A stretch of DNA of 35,570 bases, taken from Clostridia bacterium. GTDB lineage: Bacteria > Bacillota > Clostridia > Oscillospirales > CAG-272. The stretch's first letter is position 1, and the number at the start of each line of letters is the position of its first letter. The stretch is from the NCBI GenBank assembly GCA_017467105.1, contig JAFTSU010000029.1, positions 1-35,570 of the forward strand, given 5' to 3'. The notes under the pieces are model-generated. The model was not told where the DNA came from. It did no database searches and saw only the letters and a list, made by a program, of their open reading frames with translations. Shown here piece after piece: positions 10,031-29,960 of the stretch. The position numbers and the translations under genes are program-made.

Positions 10031-11695
10031 ATGAGTGAGACTGCAACCATGAGCAAAAAAGAAGTCAAGGCTTATGTAGCCGAGCTTTACAGCACCATTT
10101 CCGAAAATAAGAAGAAAGTGAGTCACGAGCTTGGTCTTTACAAGGCTGCTGCCAAGGACGTTGCAGGCTCTGCAAAGTACTTCGCTAAGGCAGAACGTGC
10201 ATACGAGAAGAAGCAGAGCTCCAAGAACGAGGTCAAATACGAGGAAACCAAGTACGACCTTCTGGAGTGCGCCGCTACATACAACAGCATCGGCGAGTGC
10301 ATCAATTCTCTCATAACCGATATTCGCGCAGCATACACTGAGATAGTTGCCCTCCTTGCTGACAAGAAGGCAGCTAAATATGCTTCTGAGTGCGACAAGT
10401 ATCTCATCGGCATCAACAACGATATCAACAAGATCCAGGCTATCACCGAAGGCATTCAGCTTCCCGCAGCTCCCGCAGCAGAGCCTGTTATCGAGTACGT
10501 AACGGAGGAGGCTCCTGCTCCCGTAGAGGAAGAGGAGGCACCTGAAGAGGAGGCTTGCCAGTGCAGCACCGCTTCCGCAGCGAAGGTTCTTCCCGTTTCC
10601 GTTGACGTAACCTCTATAGTAGAGAAGGCAATTGCGGCAACTATGCAGAAGTTCGTTCTCGCATTCGACAAGCGTATAGAGAACTTCCTTATGGAGCATC
10701 CCGTTAACATTCCTACGGGTGGCGTTGCTGTAGCAGCAGATCCTCAGGCTCCTGTTACTCCCACTCTCGTTTCCAGAACCTACGGCGCAGACGAGATCAT
10801 GGCTCTTGAGAGCTCCATTCTTGATGATGAGCAGTTCCTTATCGACAAGCTTTCATCTATGATGGATAATCTTAAGACCTTTACCGCAAGCATGGCAGAG
10901 CTTACCGCTCTTTACACCGAGCTTTCCGACAAGCAGAATGAGATCAACGAGTCTCAGAAGCAGACCAACGATATTCAGCGTCACACTCTTCGTGAGCAGC
11001 AGGGTATCCAGGTTAACCAGAGAGTTATTGCGCAGGATCAGATCGCTATCGCACAGGAGCAGACGATGCTCATCGAGCAGCAGAGATCTATGGCAGAGCG
11101 TCAGCAGAATCTCACAGAGGCTCAGCAGACCATGGAGGAGACTCAGCGCGTACTTATTGATACTCAGTCCACTCTTGAGGAAGCTATGAAGGCAGTTATG
11201 CAGGCTCAGAAGGACATTATTGCTACTCAGCAGTCCATCATTGCAGGCAATAACAAGAACGCTGATCTTCAGGCAGAGATCGCAGAGCGCCAGGCAGAGA
11301 CTCTCGCAGCACAGAAGGAGGCTCTCACCTCTCAGAAGCAGGTTCTTCGTGAGCAGAGATCAACTCTTGAAAAGCAGAAGGACGTAGAGGCAGGAACTCC
11401 CCGCAGAAAGACTCGCGCACGCAAGGCAGCAGAGGAAGTAGCTGAAGCTCCTGTGGCAGAGGAAGTAGCCGAAGAGGTAGTTGAGGCTCTCGCAGTTGAG
11501 GAGACAGCACCCGTAGTTGAAGAGGCTCCCGTAGCTGAGGAAGCTCCCGTAGTTGAAGAGACTCCTGTAGTTGAGGAAGCTCCCGTAGCTGAGGAAGCTC
11601 CTGTGGCTGAAGAGGCTCCTGTGGTTGAGGAGGCTCCCGTAGTTGAAGAAGCTACTATAGTTGAAGAAGCTCCCGCAGAGTCTGTAGAAGAGTAA
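10031..11695 (+). CDS. Long coiled-coil protein with Gln heptads and Glu/Val/Pro repeat tail
   Basis: I do not recognise a family for this 554-residue protein. It has no signal peptide or membrane segment. Residues 1-140 are Lys/Ala/Glu-rich helices; 155-200 is an acidic Pro/Glu linker with C-Q-C; 200-300 is mixed. Residues 307-453 fall into 21 consecutive heptads with no skip ([21 protein letters not shown] and so on). Gln occupies position 3 in 19 of 21, and position 6 is mostly Ile, Leu, Met or Val. A basic patch (RRKTRARK) follows, then nine hexapeptides of the PVVEEA type. ATG 10031 has GAGG upstream; ATG 9995 has none. Codon use matches pgk and tpiA, so it is probably abundant. A filament, scaffold or polar organiser is plausible but inferred. 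Confidence 0.85.
11510..11671 (+). repeat. Nine in-frame 18-bp repeats coding PVVEEA-type hexapeptides
   Basis: Tandem imperfect 18-bp units code for PVVEEA or PVAEEA variants, the last being TIVEEA. They form an acidic, extended C-terminal tail. Synonymous differences between units argue against very recent expansion. Confidence 0.85.
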
Positions 11696-22814: not shown

Positions 22815-24677
22815 TTATGATTTACAGTATTCAATTATTGCTTCTCTGGTGATAAGCTCCTTAAGCGAGTCGTATATTGGAAGGATCACGTCGTAGCCAA
22901 AGGCAATAGCCTCAAGATCGGCGTCGGTTACCGTCAGAGTGACAGAGGCTGAATTCAAAGCCTTCTTGTTACTCTTAGCAAAGTCATCCTCAAAGCTGTC
23001 TATATGCTCGGTCTGAATGAACAGCATAGGTATCTCCATACTTACAGATTCGTATTTCTCACTTTCCTCATCGTAAACGAAGAAGTACATAGTCTTGAAT
23101 TCAATGTCATATCTTCTCGACGTCGCTTTGCCGTTCGTTAAACCCGCAAGACCAACAAGAGTTGTATGAAGGGTATCGTCAGCGCCGTTTATGTAGATGG
23201 TGTCAGCGTTAGTGCCGTTCATTTCGTCAATTTTCTTGATTGAATTAATTCCTACGAGATCTATAAGCGGGAACCAATATGTGTTAAAGATTATTCCGTC
23301 AACGTCCTCGCGTACCTCAGTACCAACGAGCTTGCCACTCTCGTTCGAGTAGATCTCGCAGTTTCTGCTGTCGCTCGTGGGAATGAAATCGCCCTTAGTT
23401 CCAATGATAACGGTATAGTCCTCACCTACCTCTATCATTGCGCTGGTACCGATAACGTCAATTCCGCCGACGGTAAGATACTCGTACACGCATCCAACCG
23501 TGTTTTCCTCGTCATCCCTAGAGAACTCAACGAGCATAGCTGCAGAATTCAGTATATTTAGAGCAAAGGTAAATGATTCCCCGTTTACACCGTATTTTAC
23601 AACGGTGGTATCGGTGAGTTGAATTCGCGCGCCGTACTCCTCGTCGCCTATATTGGAGTACAGAGTTACGTTTACGGGTCCTATTGACGCGTATAGGAGA
23701 TATTCGCTCTCGGTGATCTCGATAGAGAAGTTGAACTCGCCTGCGTTACCGCTGAAGGATTTATAATCATCGGGCGAGCCGTCAAGATATGCGGAATACA
23801 GACTCTTGATAATATTCATAGCGCCGTAGATCTTATTGACGTATGACGACGCAAGCTCCGTGTACGTGAGAATACCGTAAACCATATTCATCTGCTTGCC
23901 CATTCCGTTAAGAGGGATATCTTTGACGGCAACAAAATCGTCGTACGTTACTTCCGAGTCAACCAGACGGTAATCCGGGTCAAAGGAATCGGGAAGAAAT
24001 TCCCAAGCATCCGGAACGGAACCAAATGAGTCTATGACGTCACTTGCCAGTATACCGATGGAGAGCTTGATCTTGAAGCTTACGTTCAGGATAAGCTCAT
24101 TATAGTTTTTGCCGCTGAACACTATTTGAACGTCGTATGCGCCCGGCTCGGTAATACCGTCTATTTCCTTGCCGTCAAGATAATACTTAACGTCAACGTC
24201 GCTTGCGGGATCACCGCTATATGTGGGTAAATGTGAGTTTCCGTCCTGTTTTACAGACTGCTCTGGCTCCGCTGACAAACCGGTAATATCCGCTTTGTTT
24301 ATTTTGAGAACTGCGTTAAGAGTAAGTGTATTGTAGCCGTTACAGCTGATTTTTGCGGTTGCTCTGTATTCTCCCGCATCAGTTGCGCTTGCATTCGTAT
24401 ACTCTACTTGTGCTCCGGTAGGCAAATTTCCGGATACGGTTATGCTTTTTTTGCTACCGTCGTAGGTGAACACGCCGTCAAAGAAGCTTACGTCGGTAAA
24501 CTCCTTGTTAGATTCGCCGCCGGACTCGCCGCCGGACTCACCGCCGGACTCACCGCCGGACTCACCACCGGACTCACCGCCGGACTCGCCGCCGGATTCA
24601 CCACCGGACTCGCCGCCGCACGCCGTAATGGATATAACCAAAACAAGCGATAAAAGAATAAGTAATAGTTTTTTCAT
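22815..24677 (-). CDS. Secreted lipoprotein with (GGES)9 linker and MBG-type Ig domains
   Basis: A 620-residue lipoprotein. The signal peptide (MKKLLLILLSLVLVISITAC) ends in a lipobox with C20 as the lipid-modified residue. Nine GGES repeats (21-56) form a flexible acidic tether. Residues ~60-205 contain two bacterial Ig-like modules of the MBG type (FFDGVFTYDGSKKSITVSG; ISCNGYNTLTLNAVLKI). The remaining ~400 residues are beta-rich with no recognised domain and may be a ligand-binding or structural outer module. GGAGG precedes the ATG. It lies 23 bases after the XRE-membrane gene on the same strand, so the two are probably co-transcribed. Function unknown; surface anchoring is well supported. 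Confidence 0.8.
   Translation of the reverse strand: MKKLLLILLSLVLVISITACGGESGGESGGESGGESGGESGGESGGESGGESGGESNKEFTDVSFFDGVFTYDGSKKSITVSGNLPTGAQVEYTNASATDAGEYRATAKISCNGYNTLTLNAVLKINKADITGLSAEPEQSVKQDGNSHLPTYSGDPASDVDVKYYLDGKEIDGITEPGAYDVQIVFSGKNYNELILNVSFKIKLSIGILASDVIDSFGSVPDAWEFLPDSFDPDYRLVDSEVTYDDFVAVKDIPLNGMGKQMNMVYGILTYTELASSYVNKIYGAMNIIKSLYSAYLDGSPDDYKSFSGNAGEFNFSIEITESEYLLYASIGPVNVTLYSNIGDEEYGARIQLTDTTVVKYGVNGESFTFALNILNSAAMLVEFSRDDEENTVGCVYEYLTVGGIDVIGTSAMIEVGEDYTVIIGTKGDFIPTSDSRNCEIYSNESGKLVGTEVREDVDGIIFNTYWFPLIDLVGINSIKKIDEMNGTNADTIYINGADDTLHTTLVGLAGLTNGKATSRRYDIEFKTMYFFVYDEESEKYESVSMEIPMLFIQTEHIDSFEDDFAKSNKKALNSASVTLTVTDADLEAIAFGYDVILPIYDSLKELITREAIIEYCKS
24511..24618 (-). repeat. 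12-bp minisatellite coding (GGES)9
   Basis: Nine tandem 12-bp units with only third-position differences. Unit number could change by slippage while keeping frame, altering the length of the lipoprotein tether. Confidence 0.9.
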
Positions 24678-25839: not shown

Positions 25840-26046
25840 ATGAGACTTCGGATAAAGGAAATATTGGCGGAAAAGCAGAAAACAAAGTATTGGTTGTATA
25901 TTCAACTTGGCCTCAGCTATCAGAACTTCAATAGGCTGGTAAACAACGAAACCTCCGGAATAAAGTTTGAAAATCTCAAGGCTTTATGTGATATTCTGGG
26001 CTGTACTCCAAACGATCTTTTTGACGAGTATTATAAAAATCAGTAG
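25840..26046 (+). CDS. Small XRE-family (Cro/C1-type, HTH_26-like) regulator
   Basis: A 68-residue stand-alone helix-turn-helix protein. The recognition region is KTKYWLYIQLGLSYQNFNRL followed by FENLKALCDILGCTPNDLF, the typical end of this small class. It has no effector domain, so it probably acts as a dimeric repressor, perhaps of its own promoter. GAGGG precedes the ATG. It is divergent from the membrane-bound XRE gene. The lower GC content than its neighbours is compatible with acquisition, but this is weak evidence. Confidence 0.85.
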   Translation: MRLRIKEILAEKQKTKYWLYIQLGLSYQNFNRLVNNETSGIKFENLKALCDILGCTPNDLFDEYYKNQ

Positions 26047-27048: not shown

Positions 27049-27131
27049 ATTAAGTCGTACGGGCTTATTTAAGCTCCGTATACCGTATATAAGTATTTTA
27101 TGTTTTATATCACGCAGAGGTGACCGTTCAT

Positions 27132-28214
27132 ATGTCAGAGAGCAGAAATATTATAACAAACGAGAGGATCGATACAGATCTCACAACACATGATTTTTAT
27201 TACGATTTGCCTGAGGAGCTGATAGCTCAGTCTCCCAGCACACAGCGAGACGGATGCAGGCTTATGGTGCTGAACCGTGACACGGGTGCGGTGGAGCGCC
27301 GTATTTTTAGGGAAATAATAGATTATCTTCGTCCTGAGGATATGCTGGTAGTTAACTCCTCAAAGGTTATCCCGGCGAGACTTCTCGGAAAAACAGATAA
27401 GACCGGCGCTGATATGGAGCTTCTCCTTCTCAGGTGCGTTGGTGAGGATGAGTGGGAAACCCTTGTTCGTCCCGGCAAGCGCGCCAAGATAGGCGCAAGC
27501 TTTACCTTTGCGGATAAGCTTTTCGCAACCGTTACGGGAATAGTTGAGGGCGGTAACAGAACGGTCAGATTTTCCTACGATAAAGAAAAATATTCAACAA
27601 TATATCAGGTACTCGACGAGATAGGCAATATGCCACTGCCGCCCTATATAACGAAAAAGCTTGAGAACAAGGACGATTATCAGACGGTATACGCGAAGGA
27701 GGAGGGCTCGGCCGCAGCTCCTACCGCGGGACTGCACTTCACTGATGAACTGCTTTGCAGGATCAAGGAAAAGGGCGTTGGCTACGGCGAGGTAACACTA
27801 CACGTAGGTCTTGGAACCTTCCGTCCTGTTAAGGTTGATAAGATCACCGACCACGAAATGCACGGAGAGCTTTTCCACATAGAAGAGGACGTGGCAAGCG
27901 AGATAAATCGCCGCCGCGCGAACGGAGGCAGAATTATTGCCGTTGGTACCACAGCGTGTCGAGTTTTGGAGAGCGTTTCCACGTCTGACGGCACCGTTGT
28001 TGCAGGGGAAGGAGAAACAGGCATTTTCATTTATCCGGGATATAAGTTTAAGGTTGTGGACGCCCTTATAACAAACTTCCACCTCCCCGAATCCACCTTG
28101 ATTATGCTTGTCAGCGCTCTAGCAGGCAAGGAAAACGTAATGAGCGCTTATAAAACGGCGGTAGAGGAGAGGTATAGATTTTTCTCCTTCGGCGACGCGA
28201 TGCTGATACTATAA
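27132..28214 (+). CDS. queA: S-adenosylmethionine:tRNA ribosyltransferase-isomerase QueA
   Basis: A 360-residue enzyme of queuosine synthesis that moves the ribosyl part of SAM onto preQ1-modified tRNA to give epoxyqueuosine. Signature stretches: [12 protein letters not shown] near the start, [13 protein letters not shown] in the middle, [13 protein letters not shown], and [18 protein letters not shown] near the end. ATG 27132 follows AGAGGTG; GTG 27120 lies inside that site. tgt, its frequent neighbour, is absent. The last 27 coding bases, plus one base beyond, are repeated at 29815-29842, so the gene end is also the left boundary of an insert. The product is intact. Confidence 0.94.
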
Positions 28215-28215
28215 A
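28188..28215 (+). repeat. Left direct repeat (attL-like) at the queA 3' end
   Basis: A 28-bp stretch that includes the queA stop codon region. It matches 29815-29842 at 26 of 28 positions, with GACGCGATGCTGATA as the shared core. Two C/G differences are the only changes. Confidence 0.75.
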
Positions 28216-28484
28216 AGAAATTCAAAAGGGTGAAAAAAGCTCAAAAGCACTACATTTCAAAGAATTTGTGTAGTTGTTAATTTATCATACACATACTCCT
28301 AAACAACCGCAAAAGGTTCTTCTTTAATCTTTTTGTGATGCGATGTTCATGGAATTAACTTTAGCAAAACTTTCACATACTTCAATAGCATTATTGGAAA
28401 TATTTGGGAATTTGCCGACATAATTTTATCGATTTCACATTAATAAAATGATATAATACATTTGACCAAATTATGATACTATTA

Positions 28485-28530
28485 ATTTTTGTCGATTGGA
28501 GTTGACAAAAATCGAAATTTGAGGTATAAT
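28485..28530 (+). promoter_or_regulatory. Consensus promoter with overlapping palindrome upstream of the ImmA/IrrE gene
   Basis: TTGACA (28502-28507), a 17-nt spacer and TATAAT (28525-28530). ATTTTTGTC (28485-28493) and GACAAAAAT (28504-28512) form a perfect 9-bp inverted repeat around 10 bases, covering the -35 box. This is a classic layout for a repressor site. Transcription starts near 28537, so in-frame starts at 28489 and 28534 are excluded. Confidence 0.75.
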
Positions 28531-28617
28531 GTAATGGGTTATTATGATTATAAAATGCTTGAATCAAAAATGACATATGAAAAATGTTGCAAACAAAAAT
28601 TGAAGGAAGGTGAAACT

Positions 28618-29151
28618 GTGACAGCAAATCAATTACATAAGAAAAGTGCAAAAGAAATTTTATTTATGTGTGATCAAGATAGTGCGGTTCCAGTCGATAT
28701 TAAGAAGATACTAAAAAAATTAGATATATCTGCTATGCCCATAGATTTTTCCAGCATAGAGAAAAAATTGCCCGAAGAATATGAAGGATTGAAAATTTTA
28801 GGCGCTATGGCATCCAACGATGATAAAATCGCAATATGGTATAGATCTGAGGATAAAGAAGATAGTCATAGAATGCGTTTTACCATTGCACATGAGCTGG
28901 CACATTGTTGTTTACATGGATCTAGACATCATTTAGAATTTAGAATTGATGGTGATTTGGATGAAGATGAAATATTGGCCAATACATTTGCGGGTGAATT
29001 ATTAATCCCAGAAGATTCTTTGAAAAGAACAATTGATAAGTTGTTTGTTCCGACGTTGAATGCTCTTGCGGATATTTTCGATGTTTCAGTTAATGTAATG
29101 CGTGAGCGAATAAAATTCTTACAGTTGGAAGATAAAGTCGCTACTGTTTGA
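28618..29151 (+). CDS. ImmA/IrrE-type zinc metallopeptidase
   Basis: A 177-residue protein with the COG2856-type peptidase domain: HELAH at 92-96 (zinc ligands H92 and H96, catalytic E93) and the downstream helix DEDEILANTFAGELLIP supplying the third ligand. Family members such as ImmA and IrrE cleave a DNA-binding repressor to switch on mobile-element or stress genes. The GTG at 28618 follows GAAGGAAGG with 7-nt spacing, and earlier starts lie in or before the promoter. A membrane-protein gene begins 19 bases after its stop. No XRE partner is next to it; the nearest XRE gene is at 25840, outside the element. Substrate unknown. Confidence 0.85.
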   Translation: MTANQLHKKSAKEILFMCDQDSAVPVDIKKILKKLDISAMPIDFSSIEKKLPEEYEGLKILGAMASNDDKIAIWYRSEDKEDSHRMRFTIAHELAHCCLHGSRHHLEFRIDGDLDEDEILANTFAGELLIPEDSLKRTIDKLFVPTLNALADIFDVSVNVMRERIKFLQLEDKVATV

Positions 29152-29170
29152 AGTGTTTAGGGTGACAACT

Positions 29171-29692
29171 ATGGACAAACAGAAAGACAAAGATACGGAT
29201 CAATTAAATTTAGGCATCTGTGATACAACTGAAGAATCCCAAGATTTTAACGGCGAGAGCGAAGAACACGATTTTGAATCTATTTTTAGCGAGATATTTT
29301 CGGAGCTAGAAAATCAAATTCCCTCTAAATCTAAAGTTGAGGTCAAAGGCGAAAAAAACGGCAAGAATAAAATTGATGATTATAATAATGACATCATTAA
29401 GATGTATTTGGAGGGGGAACACGCACATTTAAAGGGGCAAAAACCCGTCAGCATTATTATTGCAATAGCCGTTTTATTACAGATTATTGCATTCAATGTT
29501 CTTATTTTCATTGTAAGTTTAAGAACATTTGATAGTACAAAACTGGAGCTCTTGCTTGATTTTATGAAATATTATACTGGGGCCGTTATTGTAGAAATGT
29601 TAGGCTTGTGCCTAATCATTGTTAAAGGTGTTTTCTCTATGAGCCTTGGTAAAATGGTAGAGCACATACTGAAAAAGAAAAAGGATTTATAA
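29171..29692 (+). CDS. Two-helix membrane protein with acidic cytoplasmic N-terminus, unknown
   Basis: I do not recognise this 173-residue protein. Residues 1-90 are hydrophilic and rich in Asp/Glu (EESQDFNGESEEHDFESIF) with a Lys-rich part (55-68). Two membrane helices follow at about 93-117 and 134-157, then a basic tail (KMVEHILKKKKDL). Both ends are probably cytoplasmic. ATG 29171 follows AGGGTG; GTG 29153 starts just past the stop of the peptidase gene and has no ribosome binding site. The tight spacing makes it an operon partner of the peptidase. It could be the protease substrate, a membrane effector or an immunity protein; the sequence does not decide. Confidence 0.75.
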   Translation: MDKQKDKDTDQLNLGICDTTEESQDFNGESEEHDFESIFSEIFSELENQIPSKSKVEVKGEKNGKNKIDDYNNDIIKMYLEGEHAHLKGQKPVSIIIAIAVLLQIIAFNVLIFIVSLRTFDSTKLELLLDFMKYYTGAVIVEMLGLCLIIVKGVFSMSLGKMVEHILKKKKDL

Positions 29693-29698
29693 TCAAGG

Positions 29699-29741
29699 AA
29701 TCGGAGAGTTTGGTATTTTGCGATATTCTCCGATTTCTTTT
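29699..29741 (+). terminator. Intrinsic terminator after the two-gene operon of the element
   Basis: A 9-bp stem (29699-29707 with 29727-29735), ~19-nt loop and a T-rich tail directly after the membrane-protein gene. Confidence 0.75.
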
Positions 29742-29763
29742 TAATTCATTTGAGAGATACGTT

Positions 29764-29804
29764 TATAAGATTTGTGCAACCTTACCAATCGGTAAAATCT
29801 TATA
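29764..29804. repeat. Nested inverted repeat at the right end of the element
   Basis: TATAAGATTT (29764-29773) pairs perfectly with AAATCTTATA (29795-29804). Inside, TTACC (29782-29786) pairs with GGTAA (29791-29795), competing for one base. It lies 10 bases from the right direct repeat and has no T tail on either side, so it is not a plain terminator. Confidence 0.5.
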
Positions 29805-29814
29805 TAGCATCAGC

Positions 29815-29842
29815 TTCGGGGACGCGATGCTGATAGTATAAA
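29815..29842 (+). repeat. Right direct repeat (attR-like) copy of the queA 3' end
   Basis: Matches 28188-28215 at 26 of 28 bases. It carries no coding function here. An AGCATC/GATGCT inverted pair (29807-29812 and 29826-29831) straddles its left half. Confidence 0.75.
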
Positions 29843-29960
29843 TCGTCCAATACTGCGTTAAAGCTTCGACTTTTCGCTGTTTATGTAATAACGTATTCCT
29901 GCGTAAAAAGAAAAATAGTATTATGATACGAGCGAATAGCTTTAATGCAAATAAATATAC

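Follow-up and report, generated by a model that had tools for sequence, protein, structure and literature searches.

Integron cassettes form arrays of one orientation, carry toxin-antitoxin cargo and are bounded by palindromic attC sites with RYYYAAC and GTTRRRY boxes, and the dif modules that are found on plasmids have XerC/XerD-type sites of 11-6-11 bp, which occur in inversely oriented pairs. Those of Acinetobacter (dif or pdif modules) are described as small, with short recombination sites at their bounds and often with toxin-antitoxin genes (PMC13141974), and the term CIME denotes cis-mobilizable elements that retain both attL and attR (PMC5704250). Precedents for insertion into a tRNA-modification gene are provided by SGI1, which targets trmE, and by islands that target dusA (PMC8409611), and the phage FP_Brigit is listed with a large serine recombinase (PMC5883640). 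In the passages of two reports that concern them, Pseudomonas islands near queA lie in or beside the tRNA-Leu gene next to queA (PMC2647930, PMC6390507), and among the matches listed in the open-licence PMC literature the 3' end of queA was not found as an integration target. Here we describe an insert at this place in a stretch of 35,570 nucleotides from a Clostridia bacterium (contig JAFTSU010000029.1 of assembly GCA_017467105.1), which will be referred to as the window. Site-specific recombination within a 21-bp core, GACGCGATGCTGATNGTATAA, probably brought the insert (positions 28215-29841) into the 3' end of queA as a small integrative cassette.

At the 3' end of queA, a repeat search identified a direct repeat of 29 nt (28187-28215 and 29814-29842), the copies of which are identical at 27/29 positions and spaced by 1,627 bp. 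The initial annotation of this DNA had reported the same repeat minus its first base (28 bp, 26/28 matches), bounding an AT-rich island with two cargo genes and no recombinase, and this description was borne out. The G+C content is 0.49-0.50 in sliding windows over queA and 0.28-0.35 within the insert (32.3% overall), and the insert contains two genes, for an M78 protease and a membrane protein, neither of them a recombinase. The supposition that the match is not common elsewhere also held for the assembly from which the window comes (1.68 Mb, 29 contigs, 56.6% complete). A query with the left copy (E 0.001) found only the two known places in it, with no third copy, and a right-junction query with E values up to 10 returned 18 places, with the repeat itself at only the two known ones. 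Within the window, outside the two copies, the best match to the 29-nt repeat on either strand was at most 20/29. A common genomic repeat was dropped as a candidate because the searches of this assembly give only two copies, and a tRNA or tmRNA gene as the insertion target was dropped because the window contains none. The features of the insertion site are listed below; here and in what follows, genomes are denoted by G numbers and examined loci by L numbers.

27120..28214, + strand: queA (Pfam Queuosine_synth, E 2.3e-138); the target site is formed by its last codons, and the frame is intact
28187..28215, + strand: left direct-repeat copy (attL-like), based on the repeat search and the genus core scan; minimal core at 28194-28214, GACGCGATGCTGATACTATAA
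28215..29841, + strand: probable inserted cassette of 1,627 bp, which includes the end of the right core; based on the direct repeats and on relatives without the insert
29782..29795, + strand: tail motif TTACCAATCGGTAA, common to other queA cassettes by sequence comparison
29798..29814, + strand: conserved right-end arm TCTTATATAGCATCAGC, partly complementary to GCTGATAGTATAA in the core
29814..29842, + strand: right direct-repeat copy (attR-like); core at 29821-29841, GACGCGATGCTGATAGTATAA
29842..29871, + strand: native sequence displaced from queA, the truncated start of a hairpin repeat of the genus, which has the same place behind queA in G002
Predicted circle junction, right arm and core joined to the left end: ATAAAAGAAATTC

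The relationship of this locus to those of other members of the genus was examined in 69 genomes, 60 of which have queA (including that of the window). Genomes with a partial queA (G015, G017, and G035) were excluded and, as G018 ends inside the gene, 55 of the 56 other loci were scored; the DNA available downstream of queA in them ranges from 112 bp to 17.5 kb and is shorter than 2 kb in 12 loci. As in the window, the gene mntP lies downstream of queA in 7/55 loci. The interval between these two genes is about 0.25-0.27 kb in four of them (G002, G014, G062, and G075), compared with 1.84 kb in the window; the short interval of G014 holds a second core copy and no cassette genes. The sequence past the right repeat copy, ATCGTCCAATACTGCGTTAAAGC, is of the same kind as that found directly behind queA in the relatives. 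An alignment of the joined flanks of the insert with the native end of queA in G002 showed matches in 254/343 columns, with few differences across the join; the corresponding values were 234/348 for G075, 233/340 for G062 and 247/337 for G014. Because the right copy leads into DNA that in relatives lies behind queA, and four of the seven relatives with mntP have the short interval, the 1.6 kb of DNA represents an insertion.

The right end of the insert belongs to a junction that recurs in the genus. The right repeat copy leads directly into a truncated copy of the hairpin repeat, which follows queA in many members of the genus, and 29807-29871 shows an 88% match to a hairpin-repeat unit of G001. 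The right-end arm overlaps the right repeat copy by one base and is part of the junction, and the entire site (29798-29842) is an imperfect palindrome. The core was searched for in 59 sources totalling 183,358 bases, consisting of up to 4 kb past the queA stop codon in the 55 loci, the window, and L249, L254, and L258. The scan identified 19 copies with at least 17/21 matches, including the right copy of the window, all of them on the queA strand; none was found on the opposite strand, and each of 200 shuffled cores gave none in the same scan. L249, L254, and L258 were chosen because the junction had already been found there, and they supply 5 of the 19 copies. The copies are distributed over 15 genomes, that of the window included, and a version of the arm stands before many of them. 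In a separate search, the 36 nt that end queA recurred downstream (local score of at least 16) in 10/55 loci, and a control 36-mer from the interior of queA in 0/55. In eight of these ten loci the second copy is 99-162 bp away with the hairpin alone between (one of them is cut by the contig end), and in the other two (G063 and G080) cargo genes lie between. The hairpin repeat (110-130 nt) behind queA in many genus members (L087-L116) has 12 of 33 predicted pairs with at least one two-sided compensatory change in 17 chosen sequences. At queA its outer arms are the gene's own last codons, and away from queA it is often found in tandem arrays and, by eye, inside inverted repeats that differ from locus to locus; no Rfam match to it was found.

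Small gene pairs of toxin-antitoxin type are present behind queA in six other genomes, three of which have the right end of the window cassette in common. The pair consists of RelB/DinJ-type and YafQ-type genes in G001, of a Gp49-family (HigB-like) gene and an XRE-type gene in G064 and G080, and of DUF4160 (scoring below the DhiT toxin model's cut-off) and DUF2442 genes in G063, G030, and G079. Direct matches account for 5/55 loci; to these G079 is added, where an identical overlap of 124 bases connects the contig of queA with that of the array. As the query proteins came from these same loci, other types of pairs may be missed by this count. In the 12 kb downstream of queA, the motif CCAATYGGTAA or its complement TTACCRATTGG occurs in the five cassette loci and in no others of the 55. 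The right end of the window cassette (29772-29846) matches those of G079, G063, and G030 at 91%, 86%, and 85%, respectively, over 72-75 bp, their cargo being unrelated, and shorter partial matches were observed in G061, G023, G001, G077, and G014. The array of G030 is split over contigs, and no overlap joining its queA to the contig with the common right end was found. In four of the seven cassette genomes (those of the window, G063, G079, and G080), a core copy flanks the cassette on each side. Comparison of cassettes between species showed 585/660 identical positions for G030b-G063 (queA 720/1045), 554/660 for G030b-G079 (queA 731/1046) and 528/639 for the HigBA-like cassettes of G064-G080 (queA 726/1039); the queA-linked cassette G030a was identical to those of G063 and G079 at 311/345 and 309/345 positions. 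The cassettes are more alike between species than is queA, clearly so in three of four pairs, which favours their horizontal movement. Several such cassettes and hairpin-only units stand behind queA in this genus, the window cassette being one of them, and the presence of the other cassettes in some relatives points to an integration hot spot.

The cargo of the window cassette and its putative signals are as follows.

28502..28530, + strand: promoter-like site TTGACA-17-TATAAT, with 12/12 consensus bases
28618..29151, + strand: gene for an M78 (ImmA/IrrE) peptidase with a HELAH motif; open frame from 28489, GTG start proposed by reading, with GGAAGG upstream
29171..29692, + strand: gene for a membrane protein with no family match; hydropathy shows two hydrophobic stretches, at residues about 89-121 and 133-163
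29695..29744, + strand: terminator-like hairpin followed by T-rich sequence; the fold of 29690-29745 has a z of -5.54

The promoter-like site is the sole one with all 12 consensus bases among the 14 sites of the promoter scan (9.9 expected in shuffled sequences), and a simple terminator scan with a loop limit of 8 gave none, compared with 0.9 expected in shuffles. With this site before it and a T-tailed hairpin after it, the cargo looks like a transcription unit of its own. The M78 protein matched Pfam Peptidase_M78 (E 1.9e-11), the PDB entries for CapP (9.2e-5) and IrrE (0.0041), and in PADLOC capP (3.7e-20) and RmrA models (from 1.5e-12); its score with the spr1629 repressor/antitoxin model (33.6 bits) was far below the cut-off of 335. 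For the membrane protein, no match was found in NCBIfam, Pfam, PADLOC or PHROGs at the limits used, in 59 other genomes of the genus, or among phage and plasmid records, and in 391 genomes of the class only two weak partial matches besides itself were detected, in G129 and G300. In G129, which belongs to another family, the homologue lies directly behind an M78 gene (L199 5462-6594; 42% and 32% identity), and this adjacency indicates that the pair is a module; the match in G300 has no M78 match adjoining. An antirepressor-like gene (by eye) is located near the G129 pair. Relatives of the cargo were absent from the genome-contig and viral-contig collections that were searched, and M78 had partial, distant matches in six phage records. 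With regard to a phage satellite or prophage, 28215-29841 contains no integrase and no phage or packaging genes, and only the M78 protein matches PHROGs, with no integrase family among its matches. Judged by the company that it keeps and by the relatives of M78, the cargo may most plausibly be a toxin-antitoxin-like or defence pair, an assignment that we make tentatively and hold at somewhat less than an even chance.

The queA frame is whole and its end is present in two copies, and in the proposed mechanism the cassette would have brought its own last base pairs of queA and so have kept the gene whole. The two copies differ at two positions (28193 C versus 29820 G, and 28209 C versus 29836 G). 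In the 55 queA ends of the genus the glycine codon concerned is GGC in 39 and GGG in 5, and as the last sense codon 24 have GTA and none has CTA. The left copy combines the genus-typical GGC with the atypical CTA, and the right copy combines GGG with the genus-typical GTA. A single crossover between 28193 and 28209 would leave a left copy composed of the left half of the host site and the right half of that of the element, with the caveat that GGG glycine codons also occur in hosts. As the cassette has no recombinase, strand exchange would depend upon an enzyme from elsewhere, possibly a host recombinase, or one of this specificity encoded by a phage or an integrative element.

In the genus, recombinases on the same contig as queA are far from it. 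PF00239 was detected in 24/69 genomes, where on the queA contig it occurs solely as a contig-edge fragment in G470, about 28 kb away, and PF00589 in 55/60 genomes, where it is on the queA contig in G005, G012, and G059 alone, at about 45 kb or more; the window's own assembly (56.6% complete) has neither. No queA-type junction was found in six loci with serine recombinases of the genus. In loci from other genera, integrases are located 3-12 kb downstream of queA in L042, L044, L047, L049, and L170, one is upstream in L193, and L038 has two serine recombinases more than 10 kb downstream.

Phage-like DNA is associated with the same junction in G023. There 23.5 kb of DNA separate the contig start from the junction (G023:C7:23480-23525), past which come the hairpin and then the methyltransferase gene that in relatives lies behind queA. 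Of eight scanned proteins from the preceding DNA, five match PHROGs, a MazF-like gene being among them; queA was not found in the assembly, nor was a linked integrase. The same contig (L254, L265) encodes a phrog_2889-matching protein whose end resembles, by eye, the target of a diversity-generating retroelement. In addition, a 15-mer of the left junction of the window, GCTGATACTATAAAA, recurs at L267 5647-5661 (G023:C5), at a distance of about 1.4 kb from the gene for a large serine recombinase; in 2.9 Mb of loci it is otherwise found only in the window itself, and the G023 match may be due to chance. Of four IMG/VR contigs with a generic queA-end pattern, one alone matched queA by tblastn. 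In this provirus contig of 61,364 bp (IMGVR_UViG_3300010163_000924; examined part L302, 1,473 bp) the last 42 residues of the queA product adjoin a gene whose product has a PF07508 domain and a recombinase zinc ribbon, and this large serine integrase is 38% identical to that of Faecalibacterium phage FP_Brigit; at this junction the queA frame runs on for about 15 codons. Judging from these sequences, phages too probably make use of queA 3' ends, with an enzyme of a type different from that which a 29-bp repeat suggests.

Outside the genus, 80 named queA loci were searched for a second copy of the 28-mer (at least 21/28, within 8 kb), and it was found in six of them, of which L164 looks like a chance match; a reversed control gave 1/80. 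The clearest case is Ruminococcus sp. RUG10655 (L149, about 11023-11660), in which a small gene and then a Fic/Doc gene lie between queA and an exact repeat of 31 bp, with tgt beyond it. The interval between queA and tgt is 633 nt in this locus and 8-71 nt in 14/20 loci with tgt downstream on the same strand. In L184 (1497-4300), a longer partial duplication of the queA end surrounds small genes that, by eye, resemble BrnT and YoeB and thus toxin-antitoxin genes.

Several observations weigh against site-specific entry of a cassette as the explanation of the window insert. Neither a tyrosine integrase (searched for with a hidden Markov model built from 20 integrases of the genus) nor a large serine recombinase was found in the 55 queA loci of the genus, a search limited by the 12 loci with less than 2 kb downstream. 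Extended junction patterns gave no viral contigs in IMG/VR, and a second queA end at a score of 16 is absent in 45/55 loci. The intervals between queA and mntP in G022, G071, and G012 (1.4-3.3 kb) contain no second queA end at this score, and hence enlargement of this region does not always leave this signature. The cassettes of G001 and G064 lack a core copy (at 17/21) on the right, and in the sister pair G063-G079 the values for the cassette (616/710) and queA (893/1050) are near each other. The right-end arm also ends hairpin-only units, and array copying or slippage could therefore explain some of the junctions. In its fullest form, slippage combined with homologous exchange would mean that one duplication took in both the queA end and the hairpin repeat, that the cargo came otherwise, and that cassettes were swapped via common repeats. 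The hairpin-only duplications of the queA end at 99-162 bp in 8/55 loci and the arm common to several hairpin-only units agree with this, but queA is only about 69-70% identical between the exchanging species, which is poor for homologous exchange, and the common stretches are short; we regard this account as unlikely. An integron integrase acting on folded sites of a chromosomal integron-like array would be in keeping with the cassette organisation, the toxin-antitoxin-type cargo, the single orientation and the imperfectly palindromic site. However, the integron integrase model TIGR02249 reached its cut-off in 0/69 genomes of the genus (the metagenome-assembled genomes being incomplete), 29798-29842 by our reading contains no GTT and hence no GTTRRRY box, and the window cassette has its own promoter-like site; such an array is very improbable. 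That the insert is an artefact of assembly or binning appears hardly credible. The genomes were assembled from metagenomes and some arrays are broken at contig ends, but queA, the insert and mntP are all on one contig of 35.6 kb, the same signature occurs in several assemblies, and the order of queA and mntP matches that in seven relatives.

Site-specific entry of a small cassette at the queA core remains the reading that we prefer. The proposal in the initial annotation of insertion at an unrecognised site in the 3' end of queA is supported by the relatives without the insert, by the scarcity of the repeat elsewhere in the incomplete assembly and by other cargo at this place. Of the relatives in which it suggested looking for an empty site, other cargo or an integrase, the first are represented by the four genomes with a short queA-mntP interval and the second by the other cassette-bearing members of the genus; for the third, none that combines an integrase with the same junction was recovered: phage-like DNA with this junction is present in G023, but its contig starts before any integrase is found. 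Its alternatives of a satellite or a remnant can be refined. An origin as a remnant would be a special case of site-specific entry, in which a full element (a CIME or prophage) entered queA, decayed and lost its integrase, the tandem units being accreted remnants. The phage-like DNA of G023 that ends in the same junction, the provirus L302 that abuts queA, and the route of decay and accretion described in a review of integrative and mobilizable elements (PMC5704250) are consistent with it. However, several short two-gene cassettes, some with the same tail, resemble a small moving unit more than repeated independent decay, and no fragment of an integrase was found in the queA loci of the genus; we consider this history a possible one, with odds slightly below even. 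The satellite part of the proposal becomes one of several small cassettes, mostly of toxin-antitoxin type, and may even be part of a system moved in trans. In the latter, two-gene cassettes without a recombinase, mostly of toxin-antitoxin type, would share a common tail and the 21-bp core of the queA end, would be arrayed behind queA, and would be moved between species by a recombinase acting in trans, in the manner of an integron without its integrase; this larger scheme, which did not appear among the literature matches listed, is speculative and, at present, rather doubtful.

Elsewhere in the window, 22815-24677 encodes a predicted protein that begins like a lipoprotein and continues with a run of GGES repeats, and a gene for a small Cro/C1-type regulator (HTH_26, E 2.4e-16) lies at 25840-26046 in a locally AT-richer stretch.

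The target in the present case is a conserved tRNA-modification gene, and if small toxin-antitoxin-type cassettes, some with one end in common, travel between species and encode no recombinase themselves, the ideas developed for dif modules and CIMEs would extend to the chromosomes of gut Clostridia. The defined 45-bp site would also serve in looking for the enzyme. Among the known systems, we file the insert as a CIME-like cassette. It is similar to CIMEs in having att-like repeats on both sides and no genes for integration or transfer, and in the tandem accretion at the end of a gene, and it differs from them in its queA target, its very small size, its toxin-antitoxin-type and partly common-tailed cargo, and the fact that a parent element with an integrase was not recovered. 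With SGI1 and the dusA islands it has in common a tRNA-modification gene as the target, and the dusA islands are described as restoring the reading frame after integration; however, SGI1 is 43 kb in size, these elements carry an integrase, and the dusA islands use the 5' end of their target (PMC8409611). Phages of the FP_Brigit type are comparable in that an integrase of this type lies beside the queA 3' end in L302, but serine integrases are reported to use shorter identical repeats than tyrosine ones (PMC5883640), and the repeat in the window is of 29 bp. With the dif modules the cassettes share a small size, short bounding sites and toxin-antitoxin-type genes; in contrast to those modules, all 19/19 core copies observed here face one way, are chromosomal and end in queA sequence. 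Lastly, the one-orientation array of small cassettes, the toxin-antitoxin cargo and the palindromic sites resemble those of integron cassettes, from which the window cassette is distinguished by the lack of an IntI above the cut-off in the genus, the lack of a GTTRRRY box and the possession of its own promoter-like site.

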